Below, in pieces: positions 29,450 to 35,064 of a stretch of 35,064 nucleotides of DNA (its first letter is position 1; every line of letters starts with the position of its first letter). The stretch is from Pseudomonadota bacterium. GTDB lineage: Bacteria; Pseudomonadota; Gammaproteobacteria; Burkholderiales; Burkholderiaceae_C. The position numbers were made by a program, and so were the translations under genes. The stretch is from NCBI GenBank assembly GCA_030535425.1, contig JAUNHQ010000001.1, positions 102,229 to 137,292 of the forward strand, given 5' to 3'. The notes below the pieces were generated by a model. It saw only the letters and a program-made list of their open reading frames with translations, had not been told where the DNA came from and made no database searches.

Positions 29450-30100
29450 CTACGCCGCCGCGCCGAGCAGGCCGCGCTGCTCGATGAAGGCCACCACCTC
29501 GGCCAGCCCTTCTTGCGTTTTCAGGTTGGTCATGACGAAGGGCTTGCCGCCCCGCATGCGCCGGGTGTCGGCGCGCATCACGTCCAGATCGGCGCCCACG
29601 TGGGGGGCCAAGTCGGTTTTGTTGATGACGAACAGGTCGCTCTTGGTGATGCCGGGGCCGCCTTTGCGGGGGATTTTCTCGCCCGCGGCCACGTCGATCA
29701 CGTAAATGGTCAAGTCGCTCAGCTCGGGGCTGAAGGTGGCGGCCAGGTTGTCGCCACCGCTTTCGACGAAGACGATGTCGGCATCGGGAAACTGCGCCAG
29801 CATGCGGTCAATGGCCTCCAGGTTGATGGAGGCGTCTTCGCGGATGGCGGTGTGCGGGCAGCCGCCGGTTTCCACCCCCAGGATGCGCTCGGGCGGCAGC
29901 GCGCCGCTGATGGTGAGCAGGCGCTGGTCTTCCTTGGTGTAGATGTCGTTGGTGATGGCCACCAGGTCCCACCGCTCACGCATGGTTTTGCACAGCATTT
30001 CCAGCAGCGTGGTCTTGCCGCTGCCCACAGGCCCGCCGATGCCCACGCGCAGGGGCGGCAGTTTCTTGGTGCGGTGGGGGATGGTGTGCAGGGCAGTCAT
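29450..30100 (-). CDS. ureG: Urease accessory GTPase UreG
   Basis: UreG is a SIMIBI-class GTPase that, with UreE, UreF and UreD, loads nickel into urease. The 216-residue protein has the P-loop GPVGSGKT (23-30), [10 protein letters not shown], the metal-binding CPH in [27 protein letters not shown] and the NKTDLAP specificity motif. The ATG at 30100 gives the standard length; a 43-residue upstream in-frame extension runs through a repeat copy and is rejected. It normally follows ureF directly, but here the Anbu operon separates them and points the other way. It must therefore have its own promoter within 30101-30389 or be reached from elsewhere. Confidence 0.96.
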
Positions 30101-30177
30101 GGCGGTGGGCAAGTCCTGGGACGAAAAGCTGGAACAAAGCAAAGGGCTGGGCGCAAGGGGTTTCAGGTGCGCTAAAG

Positions 30178-30226
30178 AAATGATAGCAATGTTTGAACAG
30201 GGACGCGCGCAAAAGCCTTTTTTGCC
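30178..30226 (+). repeat. Dispersed ~60-bp repeat, copy H, in the ureG / Anbu-operon gap
   Basis: It contains AATGATAGCAATG and then GGACGCGCGCAAAAGCC, TTTTTTGCC. The tail matches copy E (GGACGCGCGCAAAAGGC) nearly exactly, while the centre is degenerate. Its right end stops 1-2 bases before the upstream NtrC-like site. Confidence 0.6.
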
Positions 30227-30227
30227 A

Positions 30228-30244
30228 TGCACAAAAATGAGGCG
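30228..30244. promoter_or_regulatory. NtrC-like binding site, distal (weaker)
   Basis: TGCACAAAAATGAGGCG matches the NtrC consensus TGCACC-N5-GGTGCA at 8 of 12 half-site positions and keeps the A-rich centre. Its centre (30236) is 32 bp, three helical turns, from the centre of the proximal site, as in paired NtrC enhancers. Confidence 0.45.
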
Positions 30245-30259
30245 CGAGGCAGCGGGGCA

Positions 30260-30276
30260 TGCACCACTGAAGTGCC
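30260..30276. promoter_or_regulatory. NtrC-like binding site, proximal
   Basis: TGCACCACTGAAGTGCC has a perfect GCAC-N7-GTGC dyad and matches 10 of 12 positions of the NtrC half-sites. Its centre lies about 101 bp upstream of the transcription start predicted from the sigma-54 box. Confidence 0.55.
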
Positions 30277-30342
30277 TTGCGCGCTGTCAGGGCGGGCTTG
30301 CAGCATCTGCGGCGGCAGACGCAAGGAGGCTGACGCAGGAAG

Positions 30343-30358
30343 CGGCATGTTTATTGCA
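30343..30358 (+). promoter_or_regulatory. Sigma-54 promoter of the Anbu operon
   Basis: CGGCATGTTTATTGCA has the invariant GG and GC with exactly ten bases between them. It matches TGGCAC-N5-TTGCA at all but two positions. It is located 32 bases before the ATG at 30390, which puts the transcription start near 30369 and leaves a leader of about 21 bases. Confidence 0.7.
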
Positions 30359-30389
30359 TTCGGCCTGGTTCAACCAAGGACTTGCGTGC

Positions 30390-31844
30390 ATGACCGCCCC
30401 TTCTTCTGCGTTTTACGACGAAATCCTGCGGCCCGATGGCTCGCCCCGGCCGGGCTGCGAGCACGTGGCCCAATGGCTGGCCGACAACGATGCGCGCAGC
30501 CTGGCCTCGCTCAACCAGCAGGCGCTGGCCATGTTCTACCGCAAGGGGGTGACGTTCACCGTCTACAGCGAGGCCAGCAACATCGAGCGGGTGATTCCGT
30601 TCGACATCATTCCCCGCGTGATGGCCGCCAGCGAATGGCAGAGCCTGCAGGCCGGCTGCGCCCAGCGCATCCGCGCGCTGAACATGTTCATCCACGACAT
30701 CTATCACGAGCGGCACATCATCCGTGCCGGGCGGATACCGGCGCGGCAGATCATGGTCAACGACTGTTATCAGCCGTGGATGCACGACATCCGGCAGCCG
30801 CACCCCATTTACGCGCACATCAGCGGCATTGACCTGATCCGCCACGGCGACGGCAAGTACTACGTGCTGGAGGACAACCTGCGCACGCCCTCTGGCGTGT
30901 CCTACATGCTGGAGGGGCGCAAGATCAGCGAAAGCCTGCTGCCCGAGCTGCTGGGCCGGCAAAAGGTGCTGCCCGTGGGCGGCTACCCCGCCATGCTGAA
31001 AGAAAGCCTGCTGGCGTGCAGCGGCCAGGACGCGCCCAACATCGTGGTGCTGACACCCGGACGCTACAACAGCGCGTATTACGAGCACGCCTTTTTAGCC
31101 CGCGAAATGGGTGTGCCGCTGGTGCACGGCTACGACCTGTTCGTAGAAGACAACTTCGTCTACATCAAGACCGTGACGGGCCGCCAGAAAGTGGACGTGA
31201 TCTACCGCCGCCTGGACGACCCCTACCTGGACCCCCTGGCTTTCCGGCCCGATTCGGTGCTGGGCGTGCCCGCGCTGATGGCCGCCTACCGCGCCGGCAA
31301 CGTGCTGATCTGCAACGCCCCCGGCACCGGCGTGGCCGACGACAAATCCATCTACCCCTACGTGGACGAGATGATCCGCTTTTACCTGAGCGAAGAGCCC
31401 CTGCTGCAAAACGTGCCCACCTACCAGTGCCGTCAGCCCGAAGACCTGAAATACGTGCTGGCGCACCTGCACGAGCTGGTGGTGAAGGAAACGCAAGGCA
31501 GCGGCGGCTACGGCATGCTGGTGGGCCCCAAGGCCAGCCGCAAGGAGATCGAGGACTACCGCCAGCGCCTGAAGGCCCGGCCCGAGGGCTACATTGCCCA
31601 GCCCACGCTGGCGCTGTCCACCTGCCCCACCTTTGTCGATGAAGGCGTGGCCCCGCGCCACATCGACCTGCGCCCCTTCGTGCTCACCGCCCCCGACAAG
31701 GTGCGCATCGTGCCCGGCGGGCTGACCCGCGTGGCCTTGCGCGAAGGCTCGCTGGTCGTCAACTCCTCCCAAGGCGGTGGCGTGAAAGACACCTGGGTGG
31801 TGGACACCGCCGCGCAGCGCACAGAAGGAGTGCAGGCCCCATGA
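30390..31844 (+). CDS. Circularly permuted ATP-grasp protein (DUF404/DUF407 type), Anbu operon
   Basis: This 484-residue member of the circularly permuted ATP-grasp family is predicted to form peptide-like bonds using ATP; its substrate is unknown. Family stretches include FYRKGVTFTVY, RIRALNMFIHDIYHE, YVLEDNLRTPSGVSYMLEGR, VVLTPGRYNSAYYEHAFLAR, VIYRRLDDPYLDPLAF, NAPGTGVADDKSIYPYV and KETQGSGGYGMLVGP. These cover the acidic Mg/ATP residues (EDN, DDP) and the Gly-rich loop. The ATG at 30390 is chosen from family length and lies just after a sigma-54 promoter. Its stop overlaps the next start (ATGA), so the alpha-E protein is co-translated. This gene opens the four-gene Anbu cassette. Confidence 0.93.
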   Translation: MTAPSSAFYDEILRPDGSPRPGCEHVAQWLADNDARSLASLNQQALAMFYRKGVTFTVYSEASNIERVIPFDIIPRVMAASEWQSLQAGCAQRIRALNMFIHDIYHERHIIRAGRIPARQIMVNDCYQPWMHDIRQPHPIYAHISGIDLIRHGDGKYYVLEDNLRTPSGVSYMLEGRKISESLLPELLGRQKVLPVGGYPAMLKESLLACSGQDAPNIVVLTPGRYNSAYYEHAFLAREMGVPLVHGYDLFVEDNFVYIKTVTGRQKVDVIYRRLDDPYLDPLAFRPDSVLGVPALMAAYRAGNVLICNAPGTGVADDKSIYPYVDEMIRFYLSEEPLLQNVPTYQCRQPEDLKYVLAHLHELVVKETQGSGGYGMLVGPKASRKEIEDYRQRLKARPEGYIAQPTLALSTCPTFVDEGVAPRHIDLRPFVLTAPDKVRIVPGGLTRVALREGSLVVNSSQGGGVKDTWVVDTAAQRTEGVQAP

Positions 31845-32443
31845 CCTTGCTGCTGTCTACCGCCTACAACCTGTACTGGCTGGGCCGCTACATGCGCCGC
31901 ACGCAAGAGCTGCTGCGCACGGCCACCCAAATCGCCCCGCCGCAGCGCCAGCAGGTGCTGGCCGCCGTGGGGGTGGTGCTGGACGACATGGGTGACGACA
32001 AGGTGCTGGCCCATCTGGCCGAAACCGCCCTGCCCGATCTCTTTCACCGCATCAACGACAACGTGCAGGCCGTGCGCGCGGTGATTGATGCCGATGCCTC
32101 CGAGCTGTTCAACCAGGTGCGCCGCCTGTACCAGGCCGGCAGCCCGCGCGCGGCGGTGTTTCAGCTTTCCGCCTGCGCCGCCGTCATGCTGGAGCAGCGC
32201 CCGCTCATCACCCAGTTCTGGCAACTGGGCGACTACGTGGAAATGCTCGACCAGCGCATCCGCCTGGGCAGCGCCGAAAGCCGCCACTACCGCTACCTGG
32301 CCCAGGTCGTCACCCAGCTGCCGCCCGGCACCGGCTGGGACCGCATCAAGCAGCAAATCCAGGCGCTGGTGTTCACCACCCAGCACAGCGAATTTCACGA
32401 CTGGCGCCAGCGGCTGGACCAGCTTTTTGAAGACGGCGTCTGA
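31841..32443 (+). CDS. Alpha-E domain protein (DUF403), short form
   Basis: This is an all-helical alpha-E protein, a constant partner of the circularly permuted ATP-grasp enzymes; its biochemical role is unknown. It begins with the family signature LLSTAYNLYWLGRYMRRTQ. Stretches such as LFHRINDNVQAVRAVI and RIRLGSAESRHYRYL follow. At 200 residues it is clearly shorter than the roughly 300-residue stand-alone DUF403 proteins I know. The frame is intact with a clean stop, so this looks like a genuine short version rather than a frameshift. It overlaps the ATP-grasp gene by 4 bases and is followed 42 bases later by the transglutaminase gene. Confidence 0.87.
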   Translation: MTLLLSTAYNLYWLGRYMRRTQELLRTATQIAPPQRQQVLAAVGVVLDDMGDDKVLAHLAETALPDLFHRINDNVQAVRAVIDADASELFNQVRRLYQAGSPRAAVFQLSACAAVMLEQRPLITQFWQLGDYVEMLDQRIRLGSAESRHYRYLAQVVTQLPPGTGWDRIKQQIQALVFTTQHSEFHDWRQRLDQLFEDGV

Positions 32444-32485
32444 CAGCCCAGCGCCCAGCCCAGCACACCAGGAAAACCCGCCGCC

Positions 32486-33289
32486 ATGAAACTGCACATC
32501 GACCACAGCACCCAGTACTTCTACGACACGCCGGCCAAGCACAGCATCCAGCTGCTGCGCGTGACCCCGCAGACGCTGGCGCACCAGCAGGTCCTTTCCT
32601 GGCAGCTCACCCTGCCCCGGCTGGCCGAAGAAGTCTTTGACGGCTTTGGCAACTACTGCACCGTGCTCAACGTCACCGGCCCGCACGACGTGCTCAACAT
32701 CCACGCGCAAGGCATCGTCGAAGTCGACGACACCAGCGAATACAACAGCGACACGCGCCTGCCGCCGGACATCTTTCTCAACCCCACCGCGCTGACCCAG
32801 TGCGACGAGCAGATGCACGACTTCACCCAGCGCATCACCGGCGGCATCGGCAACCGCTCCACCCTCAGCCGCCTGAGCGAAGGCATTCTGGAGCACATGC
32901 CCTACACCCCCGGCGTCACCCACGTGGCCACCACCGCTGCCCAGGCCTGGGCCGGCCGGCTGGGCGTGTGCCAGGACCACACCCACGTCTTCCTGGCCTG
33001 CGCGCGCAGCATCGGCGTGCCCGCGCGCTACGTCTCCGGCTACCTCTACACCGCATCGGACAACCACCTGGCCAGCCATTCCTGGGCCGAAGCCTGCCTG
33101 AACAACCACTGGTTCGTCTTCGACGTCAGCAACCAGCTCTTTCAGCCGCGCCAGCACGTGCAACTGGCCGTGGGCCTGGACTACAACGACGCCGCCCCCG
33201 TGCGCGGCATGCGCCAGGGCGGCGGGCTGGAGAAAATGGAATACTTGGTGCGCGTCAGCCGCGTGGATGCCAGCGCCCCGGCGCAATGA
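32486..33289 (+). CDS. Transglutaminase-like cysteine protease, Anbu operon
   Basis: This 267-residue protein has an N-terminal beta-rich transglutaminase-associated domain (MKLHIDHSTQYFYDTPAKHS) and a papain-like transglutaminase core. The catalytic cysteine is in GVCQDHTHVFLACARSIGVP (about C168), the histidine in ASHSWAEACL and the aspartate in FVFDVSN. There is no signal peptide, so it should be cytoplasmic, like its neighbours. In this cassette it is expected to cut or make isopeptide/amide bonds related to the ATP-grasp product. The gap to the Anbu gene is 75 bases. Confidence 0.92.
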   Translation: MKLHIDHSTQYFYDTPAKHSIQLLRVTPQTLAHQQVLSWQLTLPRLAEEVFDGFGNYCTVLNVTGPHDVLNIHAQGIVEVDDTSEYNSDTRLPPDIFLNPTALTQCDEQMHDFTQRITGGIGNRSTLSRLSEGILEHMPYTPGVTHVATTAAQAWAGRLGVCQDHTHVFLACARSIGVPARYVSGYLYTASDNHLASHSWAEACLNNHWFVFDVSNQLFQPRQHVQLAVGLDYNDAAPVRGMRQGGGLEKMEYLVRVSRVDASAPAQ

Positions 33290-33364
33290 AACCATCGCGC
33301 CGCCATCGCCCCGCTTTCTGCCGCCTGGCCGCACCTGATCCCACCGCCCCCGCGCCCTTCGCCC

Positions 33365-34099
33365 ATGACCTACTGCGTTGCCATCCGCCTGCAAGACGGC
33401 ATCGTCTTCGCATCCGACACCCGCACCAACGCGGGGGTTGACCACATCTCCATCTTCAAAAAGCTCTACACCTTCGGCACCCCGGGCGAGCGCGCCATCG
33501 TGCTGCTCACCTCCGGCAACCTCGCCACCTCGCAAGCCGTGGTCAAGATGCTGGAAAACGCCGTCAAGCTGGGCGCCAGCGAACACATCCTGAACGTGCC
33601 CACCCTGTTTGACGCCGCCCGCATGGTCGGCCAGCTCGTCAGCCAGGTGGCGCGCGAAACCCAGGTGCGCGCCCATGCGCAAGAAGGCTTTGGCAGCAAC
33701 TTTCTGCTGGGCGGGCAGATCAAGGGGCAGGCGCCCGAGCTCTACCACATCTACCCCGAAGGCAACTGCATCAACGCCACCGAAGACACGCCTTTTCTGC
33801 AAATCGGCGAAGCCAAATACGGCAAGCCCATCCTCGACCGTTCACTGAGCTACCGCAGCGGCCTGCACGAAGCCGTGCGCGCCACGCTCGTGTCTTTTGA
33901 CTCCACCATCCGCTCCAACCTCTCCGTGGGCTTTCCCATTGACCTGATGGTCTACCGCAACGACAGCCTGAGCCTGCCGCAAGGGCTGCGCATCGAGCAG
34001 GACGAGCCCTACATGCGCAACATCCACGTGCAATGGTCCGACGGGCTCAAAGCCATCCTGCGCCAGTTTCCCGAGCCGCCGGGTTATTACTTTCAATAA
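33365..34099 (+). CDS. Anbu, proteasome-like self-compartmentalising protease
   Basis: This 244-residue member of the Ntn-hydrolase proteasome superfamily belongs to the Anbu (ancestral beta subunit) branch. Removal of Met exposes T1 of TYCVAIRLQDGIVFASDTR, the expected nucleophile. D17 and K31/K32 (FKKLY) complete the proteasome-type active site. Further conserved stretches are LLTSGNLATSQAVV, NFLLGGQIKG, the ELYHIYPEGN region and GFPIDLMVYR. There is no HslU-like ATPase here, so how substrates enter the particle is open. It is the last gene of the cassette. A repeat copy begins directly after its stop and separates it from the convergent ureF. Confidence 0.94.
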   Translation: MTYCVAIRLQDGIVFASDTRTNAGVDHISIFKKLYTFGTPGERAIVLLTSGNLATSQAVVKMLENAVKLGASEHILNVPTLFDAARMVGQLVSQVARETQVRAHAQEGFGSNFLLGGQIKGQAPELYHIYPEGNCINATEDTPFLQIGEAKYGKPILDRSLSYRSGLHEAVRATLVSFDSTIRSNLSVGFPIDLMVYRNDSLSLPQGLRIEQDEPYMRNIHVQWSDGLKAILRQFPEPPGYYFQ

Positions 34100-34163
34100 T
34101 GAATGAAAATGGCTCCAGCGCTTGTCTGGCGTGTGGCAGCAGCTATTTAAACAATAGCATCAA
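34100..34163 (-). repeat. Dispersed ~60-bp repeat, copy I, between the Anbu gene and ureF
   Basis: On the minus strand: TTGATGCTATTGTTTAAATA, GCTGCTGCCACACGCCAG, ACAAGCGCTGGAGCC, ATTTTCATT. It fills the entire convergent gap, and its TTGATG start provides the ureF stop codon (TGA). Both imperfect palindromic halves are kept, so it could also serve as a weak transcription stop. Confidence 0.75.
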
Positions 34164-34861
34164 GATCTGAACAGGCGCGAATACTGCGCCTCGTGCCGCG
34201 CCGACAGGATGGCCAGCATGGGGGCGAACGCCTGGCGGTCTTCATCGCCCAGTTGCAGGGCGTGGTCAACGGCGGCGGGTATCTCAGCGGCCAGCCGCGC
34301 CAGCATGCGCTGGCCCGCGCTCTGGCCCAGGGGCACGGCCTTGATGGCCGCCTGCACCATGTTCTCGGCCCAGCCGAAGGCGAAGGCCAGCGCCACCTCG
34401 CGCGCGCTGGCCTGCGCGGGCGCGGCGGCCAGGGCAAAGGCAATGGGCCAGGTCGGCGTCATGCGCGCCAGCTCATCCAGGGCCGCTTGCGCGGCCGTGT
34501 CGTCCGCGTGGCGGTTGCGCAGCCAGTCGAGCATGGACTTGCCCATTTGCTCGGCTTGCAGGCGCAGCTCGCTGCTCTCGCGCGTGGTGCGCACCCAGTC
34601 GTTGAGCGCCCTGGCGCGCTCAAAATCGCCCGCGCGCCAGGCCGCCAGCGCGGGCGCCAGCACGGCCAGGTCGGCCCGCGCCTGCGTCAGCCACAGCTGG
34701 TCAATCAGCCAGTCGCACGCGCGCGCTTCGGTGCCGATGCCAGCGTATTCCACCGCGGCTTCCAGCCCTTCTGAATACGAAAAGCCCCCCACCGGCAAGG
34801 CGGGCGAGGCCAGCCAGATCAGGTGCAGCAAGCTGGCGGGGTCCAAGGCCGTGGGGGTCAT
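34160..34861 (-). CDS. ureF: Urease accessory protein UreF
   Basis: UreF is a helical scaffold protein that bridges UreD-urease and UreG during nickel insertion. The 233-residue form contains [25 protein letters not shown] near the N-terminus, [11 protein letters not shown], and the C-terminal [19 protein letters not shown], all typical. Two starts are possible: ATG at 34861, used here because it fits family length, or ATG at 34894, one base after the ureE stop. Its final codons and TGA stop fall in a repeat copy. The next gene on this strand is ureG, about 4 kb away beyond the opposing Anbu operon. Confidence 0.93.
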
Positions 34862-34895
34862 GGCCGCGTGGCGCTGCTTATCGGCTGGGGGCATG

Positions 34896-35064
34896 TCACG
34901 GCTGCGCGCGGTGGGCGTGGTCGTGGCCGTGCGGGTGATCGTGTGCATGGTCGTGTGTGTGACCGTGACCGTGATCGTGGTCGTGACTGTGGCCGTGCTG
35001 GCAGCCCGGGCCATGCACGTGGGGGTGCGCAGGGTCGTGGTCGTGCGCATGGCGATGGCCGTGC
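34896..35064 (-). CDS. ureE: Urease accessory nickel chaperone UreE, C-terminal tail only
   Basis: Only the last 55 codons are inside the window. They form an extreme His-rich tail: 23 of 55 residues are histidine, mostly alternating with D or G ([18 protein letters not shown]). There is one cysteine in GPGCQHG, and the end is RAQP. Such tails bind extra nickel ions in UreE proteins. The position directly before ureF on the same strand confirms the call. The folded N-terminal domains are beyond the right edge. The same bases read in the ureF frame give a Thr-rich stretch that is not considered coding. Confidence 0.92.

Follow-up and report, generated by a model that had tools for sequence, protein, structure and literature searches.

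The window, i.e., the entire stretch of 35,064 nucleotides that was analysed, contains a four-gene operon, the last gene of which encodes Anbu, a proteasome-related protein. Upstream of this operon are found a candidate sigma-54 promoter as well as candidate sites for the activator NtrC. The features are as follows.

29450..30100, minus strand: ureG, the divergent neighbour (TIGR00101, 331 bits, over cut-off)
30228..30244, no strand: weak candidate second NtrC site TGCACAAAAATGAGGCG (score 7.0; weak companions are common in relatives)
30260..30276, no strand: NtrC-type dyad TGCACCACTGAAGTGCC (best of 35,048 window positions; such dyads are enriched in relatives)
30343..30358, plus strand: sigma-54 -24/-12 element CGGCATGTTTATTGCA (top-scoring window position by weight matrix; also seen in related leaders)
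30390..31844, plus strand: circularly permuted ATP-grasp protein, operon gene 1 (Pfam PF14403, 525 bits; PDB 3n6x)
31841..32443, plus strand: alpha-E protein, short form (Pfam PF04168, 27.5 bits)
32486..33289, plus strand: transglutaminase-like protein (Pfam PF08379, PF01841)
33365..34099, plus strand: Anbu, proteasome-related protein (Pfam PF00227; PDB 5lox, E 5e-85)
34160..34879, minus strand: ureF (within the stretch examined), the convergent neighbour (Pfam PF01730)

The Anbu protein matches five distinct PDB chains, including 5lox, several of which are named Anbu, and its translation possesses both the N-terminal Thr1 and Asp17, residues whose roles are described in the available portion of PMC6376114. 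The order of genes as assigned by Pfam, that is, ATP-grasp, alpha-E, transglutaminase and then Anbu, is also the order given in that portion.

The operon sits between ureF and ureG and in the opposite orientation to them (window 30101-34160). Among 29 genomes of the genus, ureG was detected in 11, the source genome included. In seven of the ten other ureG-bearing members, ureF and ureG lie on one strand and no more than 80 bp apart, so that the Anbu operon parts two genes that are close neighbours in most of these relatives. In an eighth the gap is 690 bp, and in the remaining two ureF was not found in the stretch examined around ureG. Read-through from ureF would run antisense to the Anbu operon. 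Also present, at 34912-35057, is a tandem array of 12-base units of the TGGTCGTG kind, which perhaps encodes the His-rich tail of a minus-strand urease accessory gene.

Candidate promoter and NtrC sites

Weight matrices for sigma-54 and NtrC sites were fixed before scanning. The sequence-only reading had placed at CGGCATGTTTATTGCA a sigma-54 box containing GG-N10-GC and differing from consensus at two positions, all of which the sequence bears out: 10 of the 12 specified positions of TGGCACG-N4-TTGCW are kept, the mismatches being C for T at -26 and T for C at -21. Between this box and the ATP-grasp ATG at 30390 are 31 bases, and transcription is predicted, from the -12 element, to start at about 30369. 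With a score of 14.6 out of a possible 18.8 the box is the highest of approximately 70,100 positions on both strands of the window, and it is nonetheless weaker than many of the boxes seen in relatives.

Upstream, GCAC-CACTGAA-GTGC is found at 30261-30275, centred at 30268, i.e., at -101 from the predicted start and just where it had been claimed to be. The corresponding dyad, TGCACCACTGAAGTGCC, scores 15.5 out of a possible 17.8. Scoring by matrix, as the sequence-only reading had proposed, thus ranks both box and dyad best in the window. That reading had gone further in describing paired NtrC sites. The second site, TGCACAAAAATGAGGCG, is indeed located where described, 32 bp further upstream with its centre at about -133, but as a site it is marginal, its score being equalled or beaten by 76 window positions and so by itself unremarkable. 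In Escherichia coli, the glnAp2 promoter has NtrC dyads lying about 100-140 bp upstream of a sigma-54 promoter. The leader considered here is similar in having NtrC-type dyads upstream of a sigma-54 box, differing in that it displays one strong and one marginal site whereas glnAp2 has two strong ones.

The underlying words, as distinct from matrix scores, do not set the sites apart from background. Allowing up to two mismatches, the sigma-54 consensus occurs 4 times in the window versus 14.0 in shuffles, and GG-N10-GC occurs 1064 times versus 1064. For GCAC-N7-GTGC the counts are 4 versus 3.4 and for TGCACC-N5-GGTGCA, where as many as three mismatches were tolerated, 44 versus 49.4. With counts at or below chance, words alone prove nothing, and they are not used here as support.

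Recurrence in related leaders and origin of the operon

Within the order, 198 of 399 genomes have an Anbu match. From these an order set of 74 Anbu loci was assembled, about one per genus (L163-L236) and oriented by Anbu, of which 47 were counted as having a co-directional ATP-grasp gene upstream of Anbu; the 27 dropped consisted of 6 with divergent ATP-grasp and Anbu genes and 21 for which no co-directional ATP-grasp gene was found or the leader was too short. Boxes scoring at least 12.5 stand in 37 of the 47 leaders; the opposite strand gives just 2, and the number expected from dinucleotide shuffles is 0.85. These 37 boxes have 30 different N4 spacers and flank identities down to about 0.3-0.4, while the invariance of their GG and GC is partly imposed by the score cut. 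In four of the 47 loci (L173, L180, L189, L190) the ATP-grasp gene lies 4.4-5.8 kb from Anbu, which makes one operon less certain at these loci. Among divergent loci, 4 of 6 have a box of at least 12.5 directed towards ATP-grasp. In L179, L185, L204, L219, L223 and L235 the two genes diverge from a short common region, with L219 and L223 having high-scoring boxes on both strands.

Two further sets were analysed. The named set, drawn from a separate collection as the top 80 of at least 587 loci, is mostly alpha- and gammaproteobacterial with few betaproteobacterial members; of its 78 usable leaders 50 have a box of at least 12.5, versus 0 on the opposite strand. The genus and family set consists of 42 ATP-grasp loci, in stretches mostly too short to show Anbu, and here boxes reach 12.5 in 31 leaders and 11 in 40, with none on the reverse strand. 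Across related species, leaders cannot be counted as independent samples.

Absences of the box are seen as well. In Pelistega, the nearest relative, rpoN, ntrC and the dyad are present and a recognisable box was not found. In family f8, the leaders of five rpoN-bearing genomes score just 6.0-11.2, four of them with TTGAT as the -12 element. Near-consensus boxes with TTGAT or TTGTA in place of TTGC can be discerned in L248, L250, L252 and L254, which belong to f8, and in L028, L034, L036, L038 and L039; the four f8 genomes concerned all have rpoN.

The dyad was sought within 200 bp above the box as a palindrome scoring at least 12 with a five-base gap. It is found in 19 of 38 box-bearing leaders of the order, where wrong gaps give 0-1, and in 20 of 41 from genus and family, the window included. 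Half of the box-bearing leaders of order and family, that is, are without a dyad at this cut. Over both sets, controls with gaps of 3, 4, 6 or 7 yield 0-4 such dyads, with 0.75-0.95 from shuffles and 0.25-0.35 from scrambled half-sites. The comparison with related leaders that had been suggested for the box and dyad thus favours both, as each recurs while spacers and flanks differ. Among the box-bearing named leaders, by contrast with the order and family, a dyad of at least 12 occurs in 0 of 56, leaving the NtrC reading without support for those leaders.

Centres of the 39 main dyads range from -54 to -179, with 11 of them, including that of the window at -101, between -96 and -105. Of 38 relatives, 22 have a companion dyad that scores at least 7 and lies 17-50 bp from the main dyad, where wrong gaps yield 6-10 and scrambled motifs 3.5 (at most 9); several of these relatives are closely related. 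This lends some support to a pair of sites, but not to a fixed spacing between them: the companions lie at spacings anywhere from 18 to 42, and the idea of a constant 32 bp was dropped. Helical phasing of dyad centres likewise gave no signal (Rayleigh p about 0.2).

In Acinetobacter leaders the box is present and a dyad of NtrC consensus was not found. By eye, a TGAWACAWGW-like element is seen upstream of the box in five of six of these leaders (L016, L017, L019, L020, L021), and it may possibly be the site of another activator.

Dyad and box were also sought jointly, as GCAC-N7-GTGC followed after 45-75 bases by GGCAYR-N4-TTGC, a composite pattern written to fit the window. It was scanned across 71 genomes, 20 from the genus including the source and 51 others from the order, all 51 chosen for possessing Anbu. 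There are 32 sites in 22 of the 71 genomes, versus 1 for the reversed pattern. Within the source genome (3.31 Mb searched, 88.6% complete) the single composite site is that of the Anbu operon leader. Nine of 30 sites that were fetched, the window's included, precede an ATP-grasp gene. Among the remaining 21 sites, the downstream genes of ten were compared with NCBIfam (E 1e-20). One of these encodes the glutamine synthetase GlnA, over the family cut-off. Strong matches below cut-off are to an amt-type ammonium transporter, two NarK-type transporters, a stretch of NirB, a UrtA-like protein and a branched-chain-type binding protein, with the rest consisting of one weak formamidase match and two genes without a match. 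The scan, in short, recovers nitrogen genes, with the Anbu operon the commonest among them, though 51 of 71 genomes had been picked for Anbu.

As to where the operon came from, in a FastTree analysis of 61 ATP-grasp proteins that of the window does not group with its own genus and family. It joins instead Pelistega (support 0.957) and then two Acinetobacter (0.999), and this group in turn joins L179, L185, L197, L219, L223 and L235 of the order (0.861). In five of those six loci ATP-grasp and Anbu are divergent; L204 is absent from the tree. The protein is 72% identical to that of Pelistega, 63-65% to those of Pseudomonas and 59-61% to those of Acinetobacter; identity reaches at most 61% within the genus and, among the family matches listed, 63%. 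The window's box resembles Acinetobacter boxes even in its spacer (TGGCATGTTTATTGCT in L018). Going by these sequence comparisons, the Anbu operon is likely foreign to its own genus and family, having presumably arrived there horizontally.

rpoN, ntrC and an altered NtrC in one genus

The source genome has one rpoN match (PF04552, 213 bits) as well as one NtrC over the family cut-off (TIGR01818, 672 bits) with GAFTGA and LFLDE intact. A local activator gene was considered and rejected, as by Pfam no enhancer-binding protein was found among the 12 neighbouring open reading frames, and a nearby AAA+ activator is present in just 3 of 217 loci (L051, L067, L185), many of which were viewed with only 1.5-kb flanks.

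More broadly, rpoN has a match in 117 of 128 genomes examined and none in 11, a tally that takes in 80 of 139 further Anbu-bearing genomes. Ten of these 11 had a usable leader, the ATP-grasp gene of G556 running off its contig, and eight of the ten leaders are without a box (scores -0.6 to 9.1). The two exceptions are G428, which has a full box and ntrC and is 91% complete, such that its rpoN may have been overlooked, and G498, where the match lies at -190. The comparison of rpoN with box is muddied by f8 and genus g172, where the standard box is missing from rpoN-bearing genomes as well.

Genus g172 consists of six species with small genomes, with rpoN present in two and absent in three of the five examined. 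In all six the NtrC (L269-L274) has GAFPGA instead of GAFTGA, and in five the Asp of LFLDE, the Walker B motif, is replaced. None of the six Anbu leaders (L256-L261) has a sigma-54 box (scores 1.9-9.1), including those of species that keep rpoN. All six nonetheless have an NtrC palindrome that scores 13.4-17.8, has a varying spacer and stands some 60-73 bp ahead of the mapped start, at a position that suits sigma-70 polymerase. NtrC proteins without GAFTGA that act at sigma-70 promoters are described, in the available text of PMC10274813, for Rhodobacter capsulatus and Caulobacter. The chances seem about even that in Burkholderiales the Anbu operon belongs to the core targets of NtrC, with the operon's promoter rewired where NtrC itself has changed. 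If so, then NtrC would have turned into a sigma-54-independent activator outside of the alphaproteobacteria, and nitrogen control of Anbu would have outlived the loss of sigma-54 control. No title on such a sigma-54-independent NtrC was seen among the matches listed (best 10 of 274 and best 12 of 35), which is a thin basis for novelty.

Proposed nitrogen control and its alternatives

A link between Anbu and nitrogen has already been published for Pseudomonas putida. The literature is cited in the following from those portions of the papers that were available. With reference to Hervas 2008, PMC5666114 and PMC6376114 both report Anbu as up in P. putida when nitrogen is limiting. The region upstream of PP_2688 is induced 3.7-fold upon nitrogen depletion, that upstream of PP_2685 is nitrogen-agnostic in a reporter, and on nitrate versus ammonium PP_2685 and PP_2688 are up by log2 values of 4.4 and 4.0 (PMC8050072). 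PMC7801951 attributes PP_2685-2688 to NtrB/NtrC; there, nitrogen limitation raises PP_2686, PP_2687 and PP_2688 by 12.6-, 11.0- and 14.7-fold in the wild type, and in an rpoN mutant by 14.2-, 16.0- and 19.6-fold. These mutant data speak against strict sigma-54 dependence in P. putida. Urea transporter genes including urtA, also given to NtrB/NtrC, are however likewise induced in the rpoN mutant, making the data of that paper hard to read. PMC5666114 also describes the proteins of the Anbu operon as constitutively expressed, at a moderate level that several other conditions did not alter.

The P. putida genes resemble those of the window in consisting of ATP-grasp (PP_2688), transglutaminase (PP_2686) and proteasome-type (PP_2685) proteins, and in that the region upstream of ATP-grasp responds to nitrogen (PMC8050072). 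They differ in belonging to another lineage, and in that induction persists there without rpoN (PMC7801951). Five Pseudomonas leaders (L011-L015, not P. putida) carry boxes and lack a strong consensus dyad; in their examined stretches ureG and ureF had no match, and Anbu is near in just one of the five. Another similar system is the transglutaminase cluster I35_5080-83 of Burkholderia cenocepacia, which PMC5491218 lists as a target shared by sigma-54 and NtrC; when nitrogen is limiting, two of its genes are 6.0- and 9.4-fold down in an ntrC mutant. It is described, differently from the operon here, as transglutaminase-like proteins including a large one, and the terms 'proteasome' and 'ATP-grasp' are absent from the main text of that paper. 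According to PMC12316311, the sigma-54 regulons predicted for alpha-, beta- and gammaproteobacteria show enrichment of the proteasome-type protease COG3484, though in the portion available this is a COG-level listing with neither NtrC dyad nor operon anatomy. PMC3162934 contained, in its available text, none of the terms searched, and a literature search pairing Anbu with NtrC returned unrelated titles only. Relative to the literature consulted, in such portions, the comparative base here is stronger, and the finding correct in substance if ordinary in kind.

Control of the Anbu leader by NtrC and sigma-54 is a supported reading, as judged from sequence comparison. A sigma-54 promoter within the intergenic region (30101-30389) would transcribe the ATP-grasp/alpha-E/transglutaminase/Anbu operon; phosphorylated NtrC, bound at the dyad 30260-30276, would activate that promoter from about 100 bp upstream, perhaps helped by the weak second site; and the operon would be low given ample ammonium and on during nitrogen limitation. 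That an NtrC-activated sigma-54 promoter drives the Anbu operon under nitrogen limitation is given a probability of roughly 0.75.

Other readings must be weighed against this. The sigma-54 promoter may be real and yet driven by a different enhancer-binding protein, as alphaproteobacteria and Acinetobacter keep the box without a dyad of NtrC consensus, the named leaders (0 of 56) being a case in point, and as the window's operon groups with Acinetobacter. The best NtrC dyad of 35 kb nevertheless lies at the usual distance from the window's box, about half of related leaders have such a dyad too, and neither the 12 neighbouring open reading frames nor, with three exceptions, the 217 loci searched, many with only short flanks, offer an alternative activator, all of which renders this reading rather unlikely. 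It is possible to imagine instead that the dyad serves the divergent ureG, with the box used by another activator or else unused, the intergenic region being common to both genes, the ureG start lying 168 bp from the dyad centre, and ureF and ureG being close neighbours in most ureG-bearing genus relatives. The minus strand of 30101-30390 has no sigma-54 box, however (best score 5.6), and dyads precede the operon also at loci without a ureG or ureF match; service to ureG thereby becomes very improbable.

Equally hard to credit is that NtrC, or another nitrogen regulator, acts at a sigma-70 promoter so that the box is not needed. Consistent with that are the induction of PP_2686-2688 in the P. 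putida rpoN mutant (PMC7801951), in the available text, and the retention in g172 of the dyad without the box. On the other hand, the NtrC of the source genome has GAFTGA, and the box recurs far beyond controls. There is lastly chance resemblance, i.e., an ordinary promoter with inert motifs, as individual motif counts in this GC-rich DNA are at chance; but the composite occurs once in the source genome as searched, and both elements are present in related leaders far beyond controls, such that chance is the least credible account, and extremely so.

Within the literature consulted, in the portions available, it is P. putida expression data upon which the link between Anbu and nitrogen is based, and the substrates of Anbu are described as unknown (PMC5666114, PMC6376114). 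A layout of NtrC-type and sigma-54 sites that recurs across the sampled Burkholderiales genera points to nitrogen starvation as the condition under which to study Anbu, and the appearance of the Anbu operon beside glnA- and amt-type genes in the composite scan argues in the same way. With activation by NtrC as the favoured reading, this would provide growth conditions, a ready reporter, and indeed the genera in which the substrates of Anbu may be sought.
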